The notes under the pieces: generated by a model | Database searches by the model: none | Seen by the model: the letters and a program-made list of their open reading frames with translations, nothing else | Told to the model about the DNA's origin: nothing | Assembly (NCBI RefSeq): GCF_025136295.1 | Contig: NZ_CP062788.1 | Location: 2,745,588 to 2,809,587 of the forward strand | Origin: Aestuariispira ectoiniformans | GTDB taxonomy: Bacteria; Pseudomonadota; Alphaproteobacteria; UBA8366; Aestuariispiraceae | DNA: 64,000 bases | Direction of reading: 5' to 3' | Made by a program: the position numbers and the translations under genes | Part shown: positions 3,334-61,549 of the stretch, piece after piece | Position numbering within the stretch: the first letter of the stretch is position 1 | How the letters are laid out: each line of letters opens with the position of its first letter

Positions 3334-4353
3334 ATGGCTGACCATCGTTTTTTCACCAAGTCCAAGCCGATACTGCTTGCCGATCTGGCAACCCAGATTG
3401 GTGCGCAGTTGAGCGATAACGCCGCAGCGGAGAAACTGGTGATCGATGTCGCAACATTGGATAGCGCTGGGGCAGATGACATTTCTTTCCTGGATAACAA
3501 GAAATATGTTCCAGCGCTGGCGACAACGAAAGCAGGGGCAGTAATCCTGGAGGCTTCCTATGTTGAAAGGCTGCCCCAAGGCGTTGTCGGCCTGGTAACA
3601 CCAACGCCCTATCTGACCTTCGCATTGGCATCCAGCTATTTCTATCCGGTGCCCGCTGTGGTCCCAAACGTTCATGCAAGCGCGGAAATTGATGATACAG
3701 CGATTATTGGCAGTGGGTGCCGTATCGACGCCGGTGTGGTTATCGCGGAAAACGTTGAAATTGGCGACAACTGCCATATTGGCGCCCATACTGTGATCGA
3801 GAAGGGGGTGAAGGTTGGACCGCACTCCCGAATTGGCTCGACCAGCTATCTCTCTCACTGTTTTATCGGCAGCCATGCGAATCTGCACCCTGGCGTTCGA
3901 ATTGGCACACGTGGGTTTGGTTTTGCTGTTGGCCCGCAAGGCGCTGTGGATATGCCACAGATCGGTCGCGTGGTTATCGGTGATTTTGTGGAAATCGGGG
4001 CGAATTCTACTGTCGACCGCGGTGCTGCCGGAGATACCGAGATTTCAACAGGGTGTAAGATCGATAATCTGGTGCAAATTGGCCATAACGTAAAACTTGG
4101 AAAAGGCTGTATTCTTGCTGCAATGAGTGGTGTTGCTGGCAGCGCGGTCCTGGAAGATTTTGTCGTCTGTGGTGCACAGGTAGGTATCGCCGGCCATATT
4201 CGAATCGGTACAGGATGTCAGATTGCGGGAAAGGCGGGCGTCACGCAAAGCCTGCCTGCCGGGGCTAAGGTTGGCGGGCATCCGGCATTACCGGTCAAGC
4301 AGTGGCTTCGCGGCCATGCAATGTTGAAAAAACTACTGAAATCAAAAGAATAG
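3334..4353 (+). CDS. lpxD: LpxD UDP-3-O-acylglucosamine N-acyltransferase
   Basis: 339 residues. Transfers a 3-hydroxyacyl chain from ACP to the 2-amino group of UDP-3-O-acylglucosamine, the third step of lipid A synthesis. The N-terminal uridine-binding domain (about 1-100) precedes a left-handed beta-helix of hexapeptide repeats (about 105-310), visible as repeated IGxxx / VxIG units. The catalytic His sits in NLVQIGHNVKLG. A short alpha-helical C-terminus rich in Lys (MLKKLLKSK) matches the ACP-binding end of the family. Member of the lpx run with fabZ 6 bases downstream. Confidence 0.96.
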   Translation: MADHRFFTKSKPILLADLATQIGAQLSDNAAAEKLVIDVATLDSAGADDISFLDNKKYVPALATTKAGAVILEASYVERLPQGVVGLVTPTPYLTFALASSYFYPVPAVVPNVHASAEIDDTAIIGSGCRIDAGVVIAENVEIGDNCHIGAHTVIEKGVKVGPHSRIGSTSYLSHCFIGSHANLHPGVRIGTRGFGFAVGPQGAVDMPQIGRVVIGDFVEIGANSTVDRGAAGDTEISTGCKIDNLVQIGHNVKLGKGCILAAMSGVAGSAVLEDFVVCGAQVGIAGHIRIGTGCQIAGKAGVTQSLPAGAKVGGHPALPVKQWLRGHAMLKKLLKSKE

Positions 4354-4824: not shown

Positions 4825-5624
4825 TGGTAGATATTCATCCAACTGCAATCGTCGATACCAAGGCGGATATTGCCGGTGATGCCTCCGTCGGGCCTTATTG
4901 CATTGTCGGTCCGGACTGCAAACTTGGCGCTGGTGTTAAGTTGCACGCCCATGTTGTTGTCGACGGGCGCACGACTATTGGCGCAGGAACCGAGATCTTT
5001 CCCTTTGCCTCAATTGGTACGAAACCGCAGGACTTGAAATTCCACGGTGAAGAGTCGGAACTCATCATTGGTGAGAATAACCGTATTCGCGAACATGTAA
5101 CCATGAACCCCGGTACTCAAGGCGGCGGCATGGTGACCAAGGTTGGCGACAACGGTTTGTTCATGGTGGGCGCGCATGTCGCTCATGACTGCATAATCGG
5201 TAACAATGTAATTCTTGCGAATAATGCCACTCTTGCCGGGCATGTGATCGTGGAAGATTTCGTCATTATAGGCGGTCTGTCTGCGGTTCATCAGTTTGTT
5301 CGGATCGGCGCCCATGCGATGATCGGCGGCATGTCCGGTGTGGAAAACGATGTGATTCCATTTGGCTCTGTCATGGGAGAGCGGGCTCAACTGTCCGGGC
5401 TGAACATTGTCGGTATGAAACGTCGAGGCGTTTCCAAAGATGAAATCCATGCACTGCGAAACGCTTATCGGGCCTTGTTTTCTTCGGAAGGAACCCTCGG
5501 TGAGCGCGTTGAGAGCGTTTCAGTGGACTACAAAGACAGTCCTGCAGTTCAGGGGGTTGTTGATTTTATCCGTTCTGAGACGTCGCGTGGTCTGACCCAG
5601 CCGGGTTCAAAGGGGAATGACTGA
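4824..5624 (+). CDS. lpxA: LpxA UDP-N-acetylglucosamine acyltransferase
   Basis: 266 residues from the ATG at 4824; a TTG three bases earlier is also in frame but the ATG overlapping the fabZ stop is the more natural start. Catalyses the first step of lipid A synthesis, acylation of the 3-OH of UDP-GlcNAc from 3-hydroxyacyl-ACP. Hexapeptide-repeat beta-helix over about 1-190, with the catalytic His in HVAHDCIIGNN, then the C-terminal helical domain. The 3' end overlaps lpxI by 8 bases. Confidence 0.96.
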   Translation: MVDIHPTAIVDTKADIAGDASVGPYCIVGPDCKLGAGVKLHAHVVVDGRTTIGAGTEIFPFASIGTKPQDLKFHGEESELIIGENNRIREHVTMNPGTQGGGMVTKVGDNGLFMVGAHVAHDCIIGNNVILANNATLAGHVIVEDFVIIGGLSAVHQFVRIGAHAMIGGMSGVENDVIPFGSVMGERAQLSGLNIVGMKRRGVSKDEIHALRNAYRALFSSEGTLGERVESVSVDYKDSPAVQGVVDFIRSETSRGLTQPGSKGND

Positions 5625-6452: not shown

Positions 6453-7613
6453 ATGTCGCAGAGCTTAAAGATCTTCCTAGTGGCAGGGGAAGCATCCGGT
6501 GACGCTCTCGGAGCCCGTCTCATGGCCGCATTGAAGACTTTGTCCGCCGATATAACCTTTTGTGGCGTTGGCGGTCCGCTCATGGAGGCGGAAGGGATGA
6601 AAAGCCTGTTCCCCATGCACGAGTTGTCGGTTATGGGGCTGGTAGAAATTCTTCCTCATGTACGTAAGCTTTTTCGTCGGATCAAGCAGACAGCAAAAGC
6701 GGTTGAAAAGAGTGCGCCGGACGCAGTCGTGACAATTGATTCTCCCGGCTTTGCACATCAACTGGCAGGCCGCATCCAACACATAGATTGTCCGAAAATC
6801 CATTATGTCGCCCCGTCGGTTTGGGCATGGAAACCAGGGCGTGTCCATAAATGTAAAAAACATTTCGACCACCTGCTGGCGCTGTTGCCTTTTGAACCTC
6901 CGTATTTCGAGGCTGTCGGGCTTCCATGTCATTTTGTCGGTCATTCCGTACTGGAATCCGGTGCGGACCAAGGGAACGGACCAGCATTTCGGGCAAAGTA
7001 TGGGATTTCCTCGGAGGATAAGATTCTTTGCGTATTGCCAGGAAGCCGCCGCGGTGAGGTGTCCCGGCTCCTGCCGGTATTTGGTGAAACTGTTCATCGG
7101 GTTGCAGACAATACCGATAATCTACATGTTGTGGTGCCCACGACAGAGGGCGTGAAAGAACTGGTGGAGGAAACCGTCAAAGACTGGCCGGTCCAGCCGA
7201 TTATGATTTCGGGTCAGATCGAGAAATATGACGCGATGGCTGCAAGTGACGTGGCCCTTGCGGCGTCAGGAACCGTGGCATTGGAATTGGCGATGGCCAG
7301 ACTGCCGACGGTGATTGGCTATAAGGTCTCTCCAATTACCTATTTCCTGGCCAAGCGGCTGGTGAAAACGCCTTACGCTCACCTCTTGAATACCATTCTG
7401 GATCGTTTTGTTGTGCCGGAACGGATTCAGAATGACTGCACGCCGGAATTACTGTCGACGGACGTTTTGGCACTTTTCGGTACAGACGGCAAAAGGCAGA
7501 TTGCCGAGCTGATTCCCGCATTGGAAAAACTGCATCCGAATATGACGGAAACGCCCAGTCAATGCGCCGCACGGGTTGTATTGGACGTCATTGAGGGCCA
7601 GATTAAAAAGTAA
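6453..7613 (+). CDS. lpxB: LpxB lipid-A-disaccharide synthase
   Basis: 386 residues, GT19 family. Joins lipid X and UDP-2,3-diacylglucosamine to form the beta-1,6 disaccharide of lipid A on the inner face of the inner membrane. Visible signatures are the N-terminal VAGEASGDALG, the PSVWAWKPGR segment, LPGSRRGEV, and AASGTVALELA near the nucleotide-binding site. It starts 2 bases after lpxI and closes the lpx run. Only the LpxB catalytic region is here; a separate LAB_N protein is encoded at 59847. Confidence 0.96.
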   Translation: MSQSLKIFLVAGEASGDALGARLMAALKTLSADITFCGVGGPLMEAEGMKSLFPMHELSVMGLVEILPHVRKLFRRIKQTAKAVEKSAPDAVVTIDSPGFAHQLAGRIQHIDCPKIHYVAPSVWAWKPGRVHKCKKHFDHLLALLPFEPPYFEAVGLPCHFVGHSVLESGADQGNGPAFRAKYGISSEDKILCVLPGSRRGEVSRLLPVFGETVHRVADNTDNLHVVVPTTEGVKELVEETVKDWPVQPIMISGQIEKYDAMAASDVALAASGTVALELAMARLPTVIGYKVSPITYFLAKRLVKTPYAHLLNTILDRFVVPERIQNDCTPELLSTDVLALFGTDGKRQIAELIPALEKLHPNMTETPSQCAARVVLDVIEGQIKK

Positions 7614-8122: not shown

Positions 8123-8176
8123 AGTTTTGGATGTTTGCCGGTTGTTTTTGAGGGAGAGTGAGAAGTCCCCTTTCGA

Positions 8177-55759: not shown

Positions 55760-56968
55760 GTGGCGAGCGATCGGATATGTGCGGCGGCGGATACCGTCCA
55801 GAAAGTCAGTGATGACATCATCGCGCAGGCTCTGGCCGGCGTGTCTCCGGAAGAATTGCTCGCCACGCTTGTCCGTAATCTTCAACAGGCAGGCTTTCCA
55901 CTATGGCGGTCGCTAATCTCCTGCGGCTGGATTCATCCGATGTTCCAGGCGCAAAGCTTTGTCTGGAATTCCGAGGACGATATTGTCGTGAAGGAGCAAC
56001 ATCTCCACGGCAGTGAAAATCTCGACGGATGGCTGCACAGCCCCATCAAGGCGATGATTGATGAAAGCCGGTATGAGGCACGCTTCAATATAGGGGCCGG
56101 GGAGGGATGTAATCAGTTCCCTGTATTGGCGGACCTGCGGGGCCAGGGCGGCACCGACTACCTATATATGATGGCTCCCTTCGGGCATGACGACGCGGCC
56201 CTCCATCGTATGGACGGCATTGTCTCCTCTTGGACAACAAAGCAGGAAGGCGGGTTTTCTGATGATGAAATCGACATCCTGAGACGCCTCTTTCCCCGTT
56301 TGGCGCTGGGAATGAAATCTCTCGTTCGCGAGCAGACGGCCTTGAATGTCCTGTCCGCCTATCTTGGTACCGGTGCGGGGCAACGTGTTCTGGAGGGCCA
56401 GATTCAACGCGGCGATGGAGATTACATTGACGCCGTAATCTGGTTCTGCGATATGCGTGATTCCACACGCCTTGCGGAACAATTGGCGCCAGAGGAGTAT
56501 TTGAATCTCCTCAACAGCTATTTTGAGAAGACTGCGGGGATTGTGCTGGACCATGGGGGAGAAGTGCTGCGCTTTATCGGCGATGCTGTCCTGGCGATCT
56601 TCCCGATCGCCGGTTTCGGCGGGGCTGAACGAGCGGCAAGGATGGCCCTGGCGGCGGCCCGAAACTCTATTTCCTCCATGCCTATTCGTCAGGATGGCCT
56701 GCCGGACGTCAATTTTGGTCTGGGCCTGCATGTAGGGGAAGTTCTATACGGCAATATCGGTGTGCCGGAGCGGCTTGAGTTCTCAGTGATTGGCCGTGCG
56801 GCCAACGAGACCGCCCGTCTTGAAGACCTGACGAAAGAACTTGGCATCAACATGTTGGTTTCTCAGGATTTTGTGGATATTTCCCCGGTCTCTCCCTGGA
56901 AGAGCCTGGGAACCCAGGCGTTGACGGGCGTCAGTCAGCCGATTTCTGTATATACACTGGCTGACTGA
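55760..56968 (+). CDS. Class III adenylate/guanylate cyclase
   Basis: 402 residues. The C-terminal catalytic domain (about 220-400) has the metal-binding Asp231 in WFCDMRDST and Asp275 in RFIGDAVLAIFP, and the transition-state pair Asn349/Arg353 in GRAANETARL, so it should be active. The N-terminal 200 residues have no signal peptide or membrane helix and no domain I can name; by position it is a soluble sensor part. GTG start with AAGGAG upstream, 12 bases after the dehydrogenase gene. Confidence 0.88.
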   Translation: MASDRICAAADTVQKVSDDIIAQALAGVSPEELLATLVRNLQQAGFPLWRSLISCGWIHPMFQAQSFVWNSEDDIVVKEQHLHGSENLDGWLHSPIKAMIDESRYEARFNIGAGEGCNQFPVLADLRGQGGTDYLYMMAPFGHDDAALHRMDGIVSSWTTKQEGGFSDDEIDILRRLFPRLALGMKSLVREQTALNVLSAYLGTGAGQRVLEGQIQRGDGDYIDAVIWFCDMRDSTRLAEQLAPEEYLNLLNSYFEKTAGIVLDHGGEVLRFIGDAVLAIFPIAGFGGAERAARMALAAARNSISSMPIRQDGLPDVNFGLGLHVGEVLYGNIGVPERLEFSVIGRAANETARLEDLTKELGINMLVSQDFVDISPVSPWKSLGTQALTGVSQPISVYTLAD

Positions 56969-57041: not shown

Positions 57042-57716
57042 ATGCGCATTTTGTTGATAGAAGATGACCGGATGATTGGTGAGGGGCTGAGAAAAGGCCT
57101 CAAGCTAGGTGGTTATGCCGTGGATTGGGCGGAAGACGGTGAAACTGCGGAAATTTCGCTTTCCAATCAGCCGTATGATTTTGTGGTTCTCGATCTGGGG
57201 CTGCCGAACAAGAGCGGTATGGAGGTCCTGCAGGAAATCCGCCGTAAGAATAACGATGTGCCTGTGTTGGTCCTTACCGCGCGCGACAGCATTGCCGACC
57301 GTGTTGCCGGCCTTGATTGCGGGGCTGATGATTACATGCTCAAACCCTTTGCCCTGGAAGAGTTGGAGGCACGTATCCGTTCCATTGTCCGTCGACGGGC
57401 CGGACAGGCTCAACTGATCCTGAAACACGGTGATATCGCGCTTAACCCTGCGACCAAAGAAGTCTCTTTCCGGGAAAATAAAATAGCTTTGTCAGGTCGT
57501 GAGTTTTCACTGATCTATGATTTGATGAAAAGCCCCGGGGTTGTCATGTCCAAAAGCCAGCTGGAGGAGAGCCTCTACGGCTGGAACGAGGAAGTGAACA
57601 GCAATGCGATCGAGGTCCATATCCACCAGATCAGGAAAAAGATGGGCTCTGCTGTGATCCGGAACATCCGTAATGTTGGCTATGCTTTATATGATCCGGA
57701 AAAGAGTAAACAATGA
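57042..57716 (+). CDS. OmpR-family response regulator (PmrA/QseB type)
   Basis: 224 residues. Receiver domain with acidic pocket IEDD, phosphoacceptor Asp51 in VVLDLGLPNKSG, and Lys in MLKPFALEELEAR; winged-helix DNA-binding domain (about 125-220) with VMSKSQLEESLYGWN and the recognition-helix region SNAIEVHIHQIRKKMG. Closest in pattern to PmrA/BasR and QseB. Stop and kinase start overlap (ATGA). A PmrA-like box lies 3' of the kinase gene, before the glycosyltransferase cassette, and is the likely target. Confidence 0.93.
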   Translation: MRILLIEDDRMIGEGLRKGLKLGGYAVDWAEDGETAEISLSNQPYDFVVLDLGLPNKSGMEVLQEIRRKNNDVPVLVLTARDSIADRVAGLDCGADDYMLKPFALEELEARIRSIVRRRAGQAQLILKHGDIALNPATKEVSFRENKIALSGREFSLIYDLMKSPGVVMSKSQLEESLYGWNEEVNSNAIEVHIHQIRKKMGSAVIRNIRNVGYALYDPEKSKQ

Positions 57717-59031
57717 CATCCATTAAAGGACGGCTTGTCGTTTCGGTCTTGGCGGTCATTGTCCTGAGCACGTTGCTCACTTTAGGCATTACCTATTTCA
57801 AGCTGCGTGCGGAGCTTGACGAACTGTTCGACGAAAATATGCAGCAGGTTGCGGAAACCGTAATCAGGCACGGCTCCGCGCGAACCGAGAAGCTTCGTTC
57901 CTCAGACAACGACCGGGATCGGCTGAAGGGGGAAGAGGAGTTCCTGATCCAGATATGGCGTAATGGGCGGCTGACCTATTCGTCTTTGCCCAAGGTGAAA
58001 TTTCCATTCCAGAGCGTGGACGGCGCGCATACCGTGACCTTTGAAGGACAGGAATGGAGGTATTATGCAACCGGACAGGGCGACATGTTTGTGCAGGTTT
58101 CCCAGCCTTTGCCTATTCGTCACGGGGCAAGTTGGGAGATTTATTCAGAACTGCTGATCCCGATCCTGCTCCAGCTTCCCATTGTCTTGGCCATTATCGG
58201 CTTTTTTATTGCTCATGGCTTCAAGCCTCTTACCAGAATTTCAAACTCAATTGCGATGCGTAATCCTGCGTATCTTGACCGAATTCCGGAATCGGATGCG
58301 CCAAATGAAGTAAAATCAATGGTGGTGGCGTTGAACGATCTTCTTGAAAGACTGGATCATGCGCTTACCGTTCAACGGCGTTTCACCGCTGATGCAGCCC
58401 ATGAGTTGAGAACACCTCTGACAGCGGTTTCCTTGCAACTGGACGTCCTCCGGCGGGCGACAACATCTGTCGAGAGAGGCGAGGCCGTTCAGGAATTGAG
58501 GAAGGGGGTCGACCGCAGCACCCGCCTGGTCACTCAATTGCTTGAAATGGCCAGACAGGAACCCGGAAGCGTCGGCTCGGCGTTGACGGATTGCTATCTG
58601 CCTGAAATTGCCCGGGAGGTGATAGAGGAATACGAACCTCTAGCGCGAAACCGCGACGTTTCTCTCACGTTAACGGAGGCGGCTGATGCTGTTGTTAAAG
58701 GTGACAGAAATGCCTTGCGTGTCATGATTGGAAATATCGTCAATAATGCAGTGACATACACCCCCCCCCCAAGGGTGTTGTTGAGGTGTCAATTTGCCGC
58801 GCAGATGATTCGTCGATCCTCGAAGTGTCTGACAGTGGTATTGGCATTCCTGACGCGGAAAAAAGTCGGATATTTGATCGCTTTTACCGGGTTGCAGGCA
58901 CTAAAACCCTAGGCTCTGGCCTTGGCCTGTCCATCGTAAGAACCATTGCTGAACGTTACGGTATCAACATACTGATTGGTAAAGGGATTGATGGATCTGG
59001 GACGGCTTTTCGGATGGTTTTTAGAACTTAA
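57713..59031 (+). CDS. PmrB/QseC-type sensor kinase, frame broken at a C10 tract
   Basis: The first frame gives transmembrane helices at about 8-29 and 147-168 around a short periplasmic domain, HAMP, the phosphoacceptor His230 in FTADAAHELRTPLTA and the N-box NIVNNAV. After YT the ten C at 58761-58770 shift the frame and the reading ends at 58912 with unrelated residues. The correct continuation, with G1 DSGIGIPD and G2 GSGLGLSIVR, is in another frame and ends at 59031. Eight or eleven C would restore one 438- or 439-residue kinase. As written the protein lacks ATP-binding boxes. Confidence 0.9.
58761..58770 (+). repeat. Homopolymer of ten C inside the sensor kinase gene
   Basis: Ten C in a row after TACA and before AAGGGTG, in the ATP-binding domain coding region between the N and G1 boxes. 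Its length decides the frame: lengths of 2 plus a multiple of 3 are in frame, and ten is not. Such tracts change length by slipped-strand mispairing, and are also prone to sequencing error. Confidence 0.95.
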
Positions 59032-59039
59032 ATTTGCCC

Positions 59040-59056
59040 CTTAAGTCTGCCTTAAG
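59040..59056 (+). promoter_or_regulatory. PmrA-like box before the glycosyltransferase cassette
   Basis: CTTAAG-TCTGC-CTTAAG is a perfect direct repeat of a hexamer with a 5-base gap, 46 bases before the GT2 start. The PmrA/BasR consensus is two YTTAAK half-sites with a 5-base spacer, which this fits exactly. A third CTTAA, overlapping the kinase stop, is at 59027-59031. The neighbouring regulator is of PmrA type. No strong -10 is evident downstream. Confidence 0.65.
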
Positions 59057-59102: not shown

Positions 59103-59834
59103 ATGATTACTGTCGTTGTTCCCGTCTATAACGAAAAAGACAATGTAACGTCTTTACTTCATGAAATATCCGAAGCTGCGACGGAGCTTCCCATCAGTGA
59201 AATCATCTACGTCGATGACTGTAGTGGCGATGGGACATTTGATCTTTTGAAACGTCTTCGCCCTGATTATCCGGCGTTGCGCATTATCAGGCACAAACAT
59301 CAGTCCGGCCAGTCCGCAGGGCTTTGGACCGGCGTGAAAGCCGCAGGCAATGACCTGATCGTTACCATGGACGGTGACGGCCAGAACAATCCTGCCGATA
59401 TGAAGATTCTTTTCGAGGTCTTTGAAGGTCACGAAAAGTCGAACCCCAAGGTCATGATTCTGGGGGAACGGAAAAAACGTAACGACAACTGGATACGTCG
59501 CCTGTCCTCTCGCGTTGCCAATGGCCTGCGCGCAAGTTTGCTCAAGGATCAGACCAGGGACACGGGCTGTTCCTTGAAAATGTTCCGACGCAGGGATTAT
59601 CTCAACCTGCCTTATTTCGACCATATGCACCGCTTCCTGCCTGCTCTTATGATCAGAGAGGGGGTAGAGCTAGTGCATGTCCCGGTATCCCATAGACCGC
59701 GCCTTCATGGGCAATCCAAATATGGAACTCTGGACCGGGCCTTGGTGGGCATCGCTGATCTGGCTGGTGTTCTATGGCTTCAAATGCGGGCGCGCCGTGC
59801 GATCCCGGATGAGACCTATGAAGAGCTGGACTGA
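59103..59834 (+). CDS. GT2 polyprenyl-phosphate glycosyltransferase
   Basis: 243 residues. GT-A fold of the dolichol-phosphate mannose synthase/ArnC group: VVVPVYNEKDNV, YVDDCSGDGT, the metal-binding Asp90 and Asp92 in TMDGDGQNNP, and DTGCSLKMFRR followed by the acceptor segment HRPRLHGQSKYG. Unlike ArnC it has no C-terminal membrane helices, so it is of the DPM1-like soluble form. It should load a sugar onto undecaprenyl phosphate for the GT39 enzyme two genes on. The sugar is not known. First gene after the PmrA-like box. Confidence 0.9.
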   Translation: MITVVVPVYNEKDNVTSLLHEISEAATELPISEIIYVDDCSGDGTFDLLKRLRPDYPALRIIRHKHQSGQSAGLWTGVKAAGNDLIVTMDGDGQNNPADMKILFEVFEGHEKSNPKVMILGERKKRNDNWIRRLSSRVANGLRASLLKDQTRDTGCSLKMFRRRDYLNLPYFDHMHRFLPALMIREGVELVHVPVSHRPRLHGQSKYGTLDRALVGIADLAGVLWLQMRARRAIPDETYEELD

Positions 59835-59846
59835 GGAAAAAAGAAG

Positions 59847-60161
59847 ATGACATTACCCTCTCTAAATGTCGACACAATCTGGCTGGCCGTTGGTTTTCTG
59901 GGGCAGGGGTTGTTCTTTATGCGCTTTTTCGTGCAATGGATTGCTTCTGAAAAGAAACGCCAAAGCGTTATTCCAACAGCATTTTGGTATTTCAGCCTGC
60001 TTGGTGGGATTGTCCTGTTCAGTTATGCGGTCTGGCGTCAGGATCCTGTATTCATGCTGGGGCAGGGAACCGGCCTGCTGATTTACAGCCGAAACCTCTA
60101 TTTTATACATCGCAAGCAGGATAGGCATCCTGTGGCATCCCAAACATCGGACAGAACCTGA
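59847..60161 (+). CDS. Stand-alone LAB_N-domain membrane protein
   Basis: 104 residues, three hydrophobic helices (about 11-29, 46-64, 70-88). AVGFLGQGLFFMRFFVQWIA and the SEKKRQSVIPTAFWYFSLLG segment are the hallmark of the LAB_N domain, named for its place at the N-terminus of some LpxB proteins. The domain is related to PQ-loop transporters. In this cassette, between a polyprenyl-phosphate GT2 and a GT39, a part in moving the lipid-linked sugar across the membrane is a reasonable inference. 12 bases from the GT2 gene and 2 bases from the GT39 gene. Confidence 0.88.
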   Translation: MTLPSLNVDTIWLAVGFLGQGLFFMRFFVQWIASEKKRQSVIPTAFWYFSLLGGIVLFSYAVWRQDPVFMLGQGTGLLIYSRNLYFIHRKQDRHPVASQTSDRT

Positions 60162-60163
60162 CT

Positions 60164-61549
60164 ATGGTAACATCAAGATTTCAGGCGGCCTTCGTGCCGG
60201 TCGCACTGTTTGTATTTTTTCTGGCGGCAGTCTTCCTGCGTCCGCTTCTGCCAATCGACGAAACGCGCTATATGACGGTTGCTTGGGAGATGTGGCTGCG
60301 TGGCGATTGGTTTGCACCGCTTACAGTCAACTTTCAGCTTTATGAGCATAAGCCGCCGCTGCTTTTCTGGCTTATCAATACATCCTGGTCGGTTTTCGGC
60401 GTCAGCCGGTGGGCCGGTCTGGTACCGATCTTTTTTTTATCCCTCGCTTTCATCTATCTGACGCGGGCTTTGGCAAAAAAGCTGTTCCGCACCGACGAGC
60501 TAAATTTCGACCATTTACCCCCCCTGATGCTGGGAAGTGTGCCTTTTCTGATCTATGGCAGTCTGGTCATGTTTGACATAACACTGGCCGTGTTTGTGCT
60601 TCTGGCCTTGCTGGCGCTGGTTTCCTTTGCAAAATCCGGCAAGCCTGCATTCTTGCTCGGAATGGCCTTGGCAATGGGACTAGGGGTCTTGGCCAAAGGG
60701 CCTGTGGCGTGGCTCTATGTAATTTTCCCGGTGCTGCTTGCTCCCTATTGGTTGGGTGACAGGCGTCGTTGGCGCAGCTGGTATGGCTGGTGCGCTCTGG
60801 CGTTTCTCCTGTCGGCTATCCCTGTTCTTTTATGGCTGGTTCCGGTCTTGAGAGCCTCCAATCCGGATTTTGGCTTTAATCTGATTTGGGAACAGACTGC
60901 CGGTCGGGTTTCGGGGCATCTCGCGAATTCTCACGCAAGACCCATATATTTCTATTTGCCATTGTTGCCAGTTCTGTTCCTGCCCTGGGCCTTCATACCA
61001 TCCTTCTGGCGGAGATCAGGCAACGCCAAGAAAACATTTAGCAGTAGTCAGGGGTTGAGGTTTATCGCCTGCTGGGTCATCCCGGTAATAATTTCCTTCT
61101 CCCTGATCAGCGGGAAGCAACCGCATTATCTCGTCCCGTTGTTGCCAGGTGTCCTGATCTTTGTCGCCAGCCGATTGCAAATACCAACGAAGAAGCTGCG
61201 CCTCATATCACTGACCATGATTGTCATATTGATAATCGGACAGGCGGTAGCATCCCGGACGGTCTTCCCGAAATATGATCTTGCCCCGATTGCTGATTAT
61301 GTCGGCCAGCATGAGGGCAGAGACTGGGTGTTCACCAGAAAATACCAGGGGGAACTGACCTTTCTGGGGAGACTACAAAAGAAGCTTGATGACCGTGATC
61401 ACGGTGAACTGAAAGAGTGGTTCAGCTCCCATCCGCAGGGGATGGCCGTTGTCCGATACACCGGAGAGGCCGAGGTTGCCGGTTTAGAACCGGTGCTGAT
61501 CATACCGTATCGCGGCAGGTATTTGGGGATTTTCCGTAACAAACCTTGA
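60164..61549 (+). CDS. ArnT-like GT39 glycosyltransferase
   Basis: 461 residues with about ten transmembrane helices. The first periplasmic loop has the GT-C acidic pair in LPIDETRYMTVAWEM and the YEHKPPLLFWLI segment shared with ArnT and other protein mannosyltransferase-fold enzymes. ISGKQPHYLVPLLPG lies near the last helices. Expected to transfer a sugar from undecaprenyl phosphate to lipid A or another envelope acceptor on the periplasmic side. ArnA, B and D are not nearby, so aminoarabinose is not assured. Last gene of the cassette. Confidence 0.9.
   Translation: MVTSRFQAAFVPVALFVFFLAAVFLRPLLPIDETRYMTVAWEMWLRGDWFAPLTVNFQLYEHKPPLLFWLINTSWSVFGVSRWAGLVPIFFLSLAFIYLTRALAKKLFRTDELNFDHLPPLMLGSVPFLIYGSLVMFDITLAVFVLLALLALVSFAKSGKPAFLLGMALAMGLGVLAKGPVAWLYVIFPVLLAPYWLGDRRRWRSWYGWCALAFLLSAIPVLLWLVPVLRASNPDFGFNLIWEQTAGRVSGHLANSHARPIYFYLPLLPVLFLPWAFIPSFWRRSGNAKKTFSSSQGLRFIACWVIPVIISFSLISGKQPHYLVPLLPGVLIFVASRLQIPTKKLRLISLTMIVILIIGQAVASRTVFPKYDLAPIADYVGQHEGRDWVFTRKYQGELTFLGRLQKKLDDRDHGELKEWFSSHPQGMAVVRYTGEAEVAGLEPVLIIPYRGRYLGIFRNKP

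Follow-up and report, generated by a model that had tools for sequence, protein, structure and literature searches.

A ten-cytosine run breaks the reading frame of a PmrB/QseC-like sensor kinase gene beside a putative envelope glycosyltransferase cassette in an alphaproteobacterium

A sensor kinase gene contains ten C in a row at positions 58761-58770 (+ strand) of the window, by which we mean the whole 64-kb stretch of DNA that was analysed, and past this run the gene as assembled continues in the wrong frame. The best reading, to which we give about an even chance, is that a mutable C tract of the kind known from bvgS has slipped and that the assembly caught it at an OFF length. The kinase appears from its profile matches to belong to a PmrA/QseB-like two-component system, an assignment new in this analysis, and a system like PmrAB or QseBC probably induces the glycosyltransferase cassette encoded downstream via a predicted operator of the PmrA-box type.

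The kinase begins with an ATG at 57713 that overlaps the 3′ end of the gene for the response regulator. From there, the ORF list and a frame check give an ORF of 399 aa (57713-58912, + strand) that is off frame past the tract. The tract falls in the last third of the gene and, in the product, within the ATPase domain, between NIVNNAVTYT and DSGIGIPD, which we take to be the N box and the G1 region. Translation and Pfam matching divide the gene into 2 pieces. The first piece (57713-58768, + strand) has the sensor region, a HisKA domain (E = 3.5e-15), and the start of the ATPase domain. The second piece (58771-59031, + strand) is in another frame and has the remainder of HATPase_c, matching profile positions 25-107 of 111 (E = 1.2e-15) with its catalytic motifs DSGIGIPD and GSGLGLSIVR retained. 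Past the tract, the 3 frames have 86, 46, and 3 open codons, and the off-frame tail of the kinase to its stop is 156 bases long. The preliminary description of this DNA had reported the C10 run with its broken kinase frame, the continuation of the 2 motifs in a different frame to 59031, and a second half with no other stops or frame changes. All of this is borne out by direct reading of the sequence, the frame check, and the open frame from 58771 through 59031.

That the coding part downstream of the tract is well kept, also proposed at that stage, can be put in numbers. We compared 3 distant relatives, namely the alphaproteobacterial MAG SJ137, MAG UBA6940 (titled gammaproteobacterial), and Nitrosovibrio sp. 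Nv17, in which the kinase is a single ORF, listed at 438, 444, and 502 aa, respectively. Both Pfam domains are present in the kinases of MAG SJ137 and MAG UBA6940, the 2 that were checked for them. Identity after the tract is about the same as identity before it, at 57.8% versus 55.2% for MAG SJ137, 43.7% versus 41.7% for MAG UBA6940, and 39.4% versus 37.5% for Nitrosovibrio sp. Nv17. None of the 3 has a C tract at the kinase site, which is a weak test given that the nearest is just 55% identical. Looking for the tract in relatives had been suggested in the preliminary description; these distant ones lack it, and the second half here is undecayed. Because the second half is conserved like the first, and because the relatives' kinase is open with no tract in it, the lesion in the frame is either recent or artefactual.

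A wider search covers more genomes at lower similarity. Among the 59 genomes searched for the kinase, none is congeneric, and among the matches listed for 13 other genomes of the family, none is an orthologue usable for comparing the tract; the best of those listed are 29% identical over nearly the full length, with partial ones at 31-35%. At the strict motif N-A-x-x-Y-T, runs of at least 8 C, and likewise of at least 9 C, occur in none of the other 384 genomes from the class, so that the present genome is the only one to have either (1 of 385 each). This count carries little weight, as the motif, whatever its codons, is so infrequent, being found in 8 of 106 class genomes including this one (7 of 105 others). 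We considered that the C-rich codon string might be avoided at this motif, and dropped the idea for having too few opportunities in those same genomes. Kinase relatives on plasmids came to 4874 records, all below 60% identity. Viral contigs gave 3 matches to a 17-base stretch of the locus, and in none of the 3 does a C tract follow.

An artefact could have arisen by a miscount of the homopolymer during base calling or assembly, in which case this is an ordinary kinase gene, open throughout at the true tract length. This is the main rival, which we regard as somewhat unlikely; a miscount would look identical to a real slip. Long runs of C or G are known failure places for base callers, and C10 is the sole run of 10 C or G, hence the longest, in this one-contig genome of 4,361,962 bases. 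That it is also the sole frame break found in the 64-kb window, and that both halves of the kinase are well conserved, likewise favours a miscount. PMC3711429, which regards singleton frameshifted genes as probably the result of an indel mutation or a sequencing error, points the same way.

To place C10 among the other runs, the genome has 4 further runs of 9 C or G and 117 C7 places, of which 100 were itemised, and the C8 totals and run counts were derived by hand from that listing. The hand count gives 19-26 C8 places, versus about 250 at the shuffle rate of the window, or about one tenth of the expectation. Within the window, dinucleotide shuffles give a mean of 3.65 C8 matches, and since 66 of 100 shuffles have at least the 3 observed, base composition alone leaves the run not improbable. 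C10 stands out in a genome that has few long C/G runs.

The other runs also indicate how well homopolymers were called. The sample is 25 runs besides C10, out of about 91-98 distinct runs of at least 7 by hand count. Among the runs of 9, a G9 lies in frame within an open frame of 434 codons that is CpaE-like by eye, and the other 3 of the 4 either lie at the start of an ORF or have no long frame around them. The remaining 21 runs of 7-8 were taken from 20 stretches, and 15 of them are well within long open frames, a criterion that is biased toward intact genes, with the other 6 near ORF ends and uninformative. Both the G9 that keeps its frame and these 15 runs argue against a miscount, as does the finding that no general homopolymer problem is seen in the 25 sampled runs other than C10. 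Separately, the G9 at 308510-308518 of the contig is directly 5′ of an ATG (GGGGGGGGGAGATG) in the position of a ribosome-binding site, where a change of length could alter translation of the following gene. Another G9, at 388100-388108 of the contig, lies between the end of an AraC-type frame and a Fic-family frame, both named by eye.

A codon-usage scan of the 64-kb window gave 57 coding segments. Each was followed to its next stop, and no second gene among them was judged broken, with the limit that the scan itself missed the short second piece of the kinase, so short frame breaks can escape it. Other long stop tails in the window are 186 and 177 bases, which exceed the 156 of the kinase, and 108 bases. 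The 3 ORFs concerned match Pfam families, those with the 177- and 108-base tails near their C-terminal ends, and we judged all 3 to be unbroken. Inner stops in 2 merged scan segments look like gene boundaries. Nothing points to an assembly of poor overall quality, yet an error would be likeliest at the longest C run. Should C10 prove to be miscounted, the case would underline the need to check the reads wherever a kinase loses its frame at a C run.

We return to the preferred reading, a real slip of the tract. The model for it is bvgS of Bordetella pertussis, where by the account in PMC1891110 a C6/C7 run in the sensor kinase gene sets full-length versus truncated kinase, and both tract lengths occur in strains and in mixed cultures. 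The gene studied here is like bvgS in having a C run within a sensor kinase gene whose length decides between a full-length and a truncated product, and unlike it in that one assembly shows one length. BvgS itself is a larger kinase of another kind. In Bordetella, C/G tracts longer than 8 are described as over-represented, with a three-genome screen finding 69 long tracts (PMC1891110), whereas long C runs are scarce in the present genome, and a single long tract against that background is unlike a genome using such switches, which counts against a slip. In Campylobacter jejuni, as presented in PMC7677240, slips in homopolymers shift the frame of both flgS and flgR, the 2 genes of a two-component system; the tracts are of A/T, the target is flagellar, and revertants were isolated. 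The likeness is again a frame-shifting homopolymer in a two-component system, with a C tract here in contrast to the A/T tracts there. A further source, PMC2715451, was set aside as a kinase precedent, as the tracts in the text concerned are in sabA.

Two features looked for in a contingency locus are found at C10. It is a long tract that in one state has an out-of-frame length, and the remainder of the gene is intact, with the second piece open and conserved, such that a slip could restore it. Loss of mismatch repair shows no sign, with matches to both MutS and MutL present in open frames, and their presence should restrain slippage. The late position of the tract within the gene, and its absence from the 3 relatives, also weigh against a slip. 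Because long C runs are scarce, the relatives are tract-free, the mismatch-repair genes are present, and the observation is from one strain only, a dedicated, selected switch in this genome is not supported. The narrower proposal that selection has made the C tract of a PmrB/QseC-type kinase a phase switch, randomly toggling envelope glycosylation via the predicted operator, is thus one we consider unlikely, and whatever chance it has is counted within the chance given to a slip.

A tract that is real in the cell could also be fixed, making the kinase a plain recent pseudogene, permanently lost, with its regulator idle or served by another kinase. Slippage in C runs is a known route to gene loss, the data are one chromosome with one length, and other kinases might serve, there being 25 further matches to the first piece of the kinase in the same genome. 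Conservation of the second half like the first, together with an open regulator gene and open cassette genes, argues the other way, although weakly, as a very recent loss would also be undecayed. We consider a pseudogene of this kind to be quite improbable.

Far less probable still is recoding, in which the ribosome or the RNA polymerase slips on the C run and some full-length kinase is made from the gene as it stands. Long C runs do permit re-pairing of shifted tRNAs or of the transcript, and there is a possible hairpin 3′ of the tract at 58785-58848 with a fold of −24.7 kcal/mol. The fold has a z score of −1.63, is equalled by 10 of 200 shuffles, and begins 14 bases past the tract, and the lack of a tract in the 3 relatives means that there is no conserved recoding site. 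A programmed frameshift, taken as a conserved slippery site with a stimulating structure, was rejected on that missing site and that z score.

The gene upstream of the kinase (57042-57716, + strand) encodes an OmpR-type response regulator, placed by Pfam, NCBIfam, and solved structures nearest to the PmrA/BasR and QseB models. Its best NCBIfam model is PmrA at 241 bits (cut-off 330), followed by QseB at 236.5 (cut-off 345), and the solved regulator nearest to it is BasR. The first piece of the kinase has its best NCBIfam scores to QseC at 148 bits and PmrB at 122.7 (PmrB cut-off 314), both below cut-off, and the second piece to RppB and PnpS at 64 bits each, also below cut-off. With neither the regulator nor the first kinase piece alone reaching the NCBIfam cut-offs, there is no PmrA/PmrB equivalog assignment, and the PmrB-like kinase of the preliminary description is upheld in the broader form of PmrA/PmrB- or QseB/QseC-like. 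As a minor observation, the gene directly 5′ of the regulator gene (55760-56968) has an adenylate/guanylate cyclase catalytic domain, and Nitrosovibrio sp. Nv17 has a partial match (32% identity) to this cyclase-domain gene near its kinase.

Downstream of the kinase, 3 genes on the + strand form the cassette, as identified by Pfam and NCBIfam. They encode a family 2 glycosyltransferase that is weakly ArnC-like (GT2, 59103-59834), scoring 79 of 529 bits against the ArnC model, a protein with LAB_N, the lipid A biosynthesis N-terminal domain (59847-60161), and an ArnT/PMT-like glycosyltransferase (60164-61549), scoring 115 of 567 bits against ArnT. MAG SJ137 has the same order of regulator, kinase, GT2, LAB_N, and PMT, with identities of 71%, 55%, 76%, 72%, and 61%, respectively. 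The system resembles PmrAB (BasSR) in having an OmpR-type regulator nearest PmrA, a repeat of PmrA-box form, and an ArnT-like gene adjoining. It is unlike PmrAB in scoring below the PmrA/PmrB cut-offs, in that the change here is a frame break at a C run, and in having a GT2-LAB_N-PMT cassette, an arrangement from which the classical arn operon differs. Among the PmrAB systems, pmrB is named as a hypermutable site in Pseudomonas aeruginosa in PMC9189680.

If a slip is what happened, the course of events may have been as follows. The Y-T-P-P stretch of the kinase ATPase domain is in C-rich codons, and its Thr-Pro-Pro part would have become a long C run prone to replication slippage, at a rate of change that we would expect to be appreciable. 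At the assembled length, the phospho-acceptor domain would be made and the ATP-binding half lost. A kinase truncated in this way should neither autophosphorylate nor phosphorylate its regulator, and the cassette would then be uninduced by this route; the HisKA part may still act as a phosphatase, as in other kinases. As in bvgS, another slip could bring the kinase back, the second half being intact. A tract that does vary in the cell would add envelope modification of the PmrAB kind, in an alphaproteobacterium, to the systems with a regulator switch of the bvgS/flgS type, and one slip would alter the whole response.

The candidate for the link between regulator and cassette is a direct repeat of PmrA-box type, CTTAAG-N5-CTTAAG, at 59040-59056 (+ strand), between the kinase gene and the glycosyltransferase cassette, written in full CTTAAG-TCTGC-CTTAAG. 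The PmrA box consensus in Acinetobacter is given in PMC12654582 as HTTAAD-N5-HTTAAD. The repeat fits that consensus and stands before envelope-modification genes, which makes it a candidate operator. The form YTTAAK-N5-YTTAAK is expected 0.03 times per window. In MAG SJ137, the repeat is at 4073-4089 of its locus, likewise between kinase and GT2, with 0.06 expected in that locus. The MAG UBA6940 locus has 4 matches at 3 places (5274-5290, 7320-7336, and 8158-8174), with 0.13 expected, and the Nitrosovibrio sp. Nv17 locus has none. Position and recurrence in relatives give moderate support to the predicted operator at 59040-59056. Genome-wide rarity of the repeat was dropped as an argument, the backward control pattern being equally or more frequent, with 1 place versus 2 for the control in the YTTAAG form and 9 places versus 17 for HTTAAD-N5-HTTAAD. 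Dropping it lowers the weight of the operator only, as the chances given to the readings of the tract are independent of the operator.

The preliminary description had the kinase signalling to an adjacent envelope sugar cassette, and this link gains moderate support from the gene order in MAG SJ137 and the PmrA-box-type repeat. What MAG SJ137 shares, in gene order and repeat, ties the regulator to the GT2-LAB_N-PMT cassette in a way that can be tested whether the tract varies or was miscounted. Two smaller observations concern where such repeats are found. In MAG UBA6940, one repeat is before the regulator gene and another is before a gene that by eye is of outer-membrane type, which is there in place of the glycosyltransferase cassette. 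In the genome studied here, an HTTAAD-N5-HTTAAD site at 971739-971755 of the contig is about 700 bases from the next best full-length relative of the kinase, which is encoded at 972460-973503 on the minus strand and is 27% identical.
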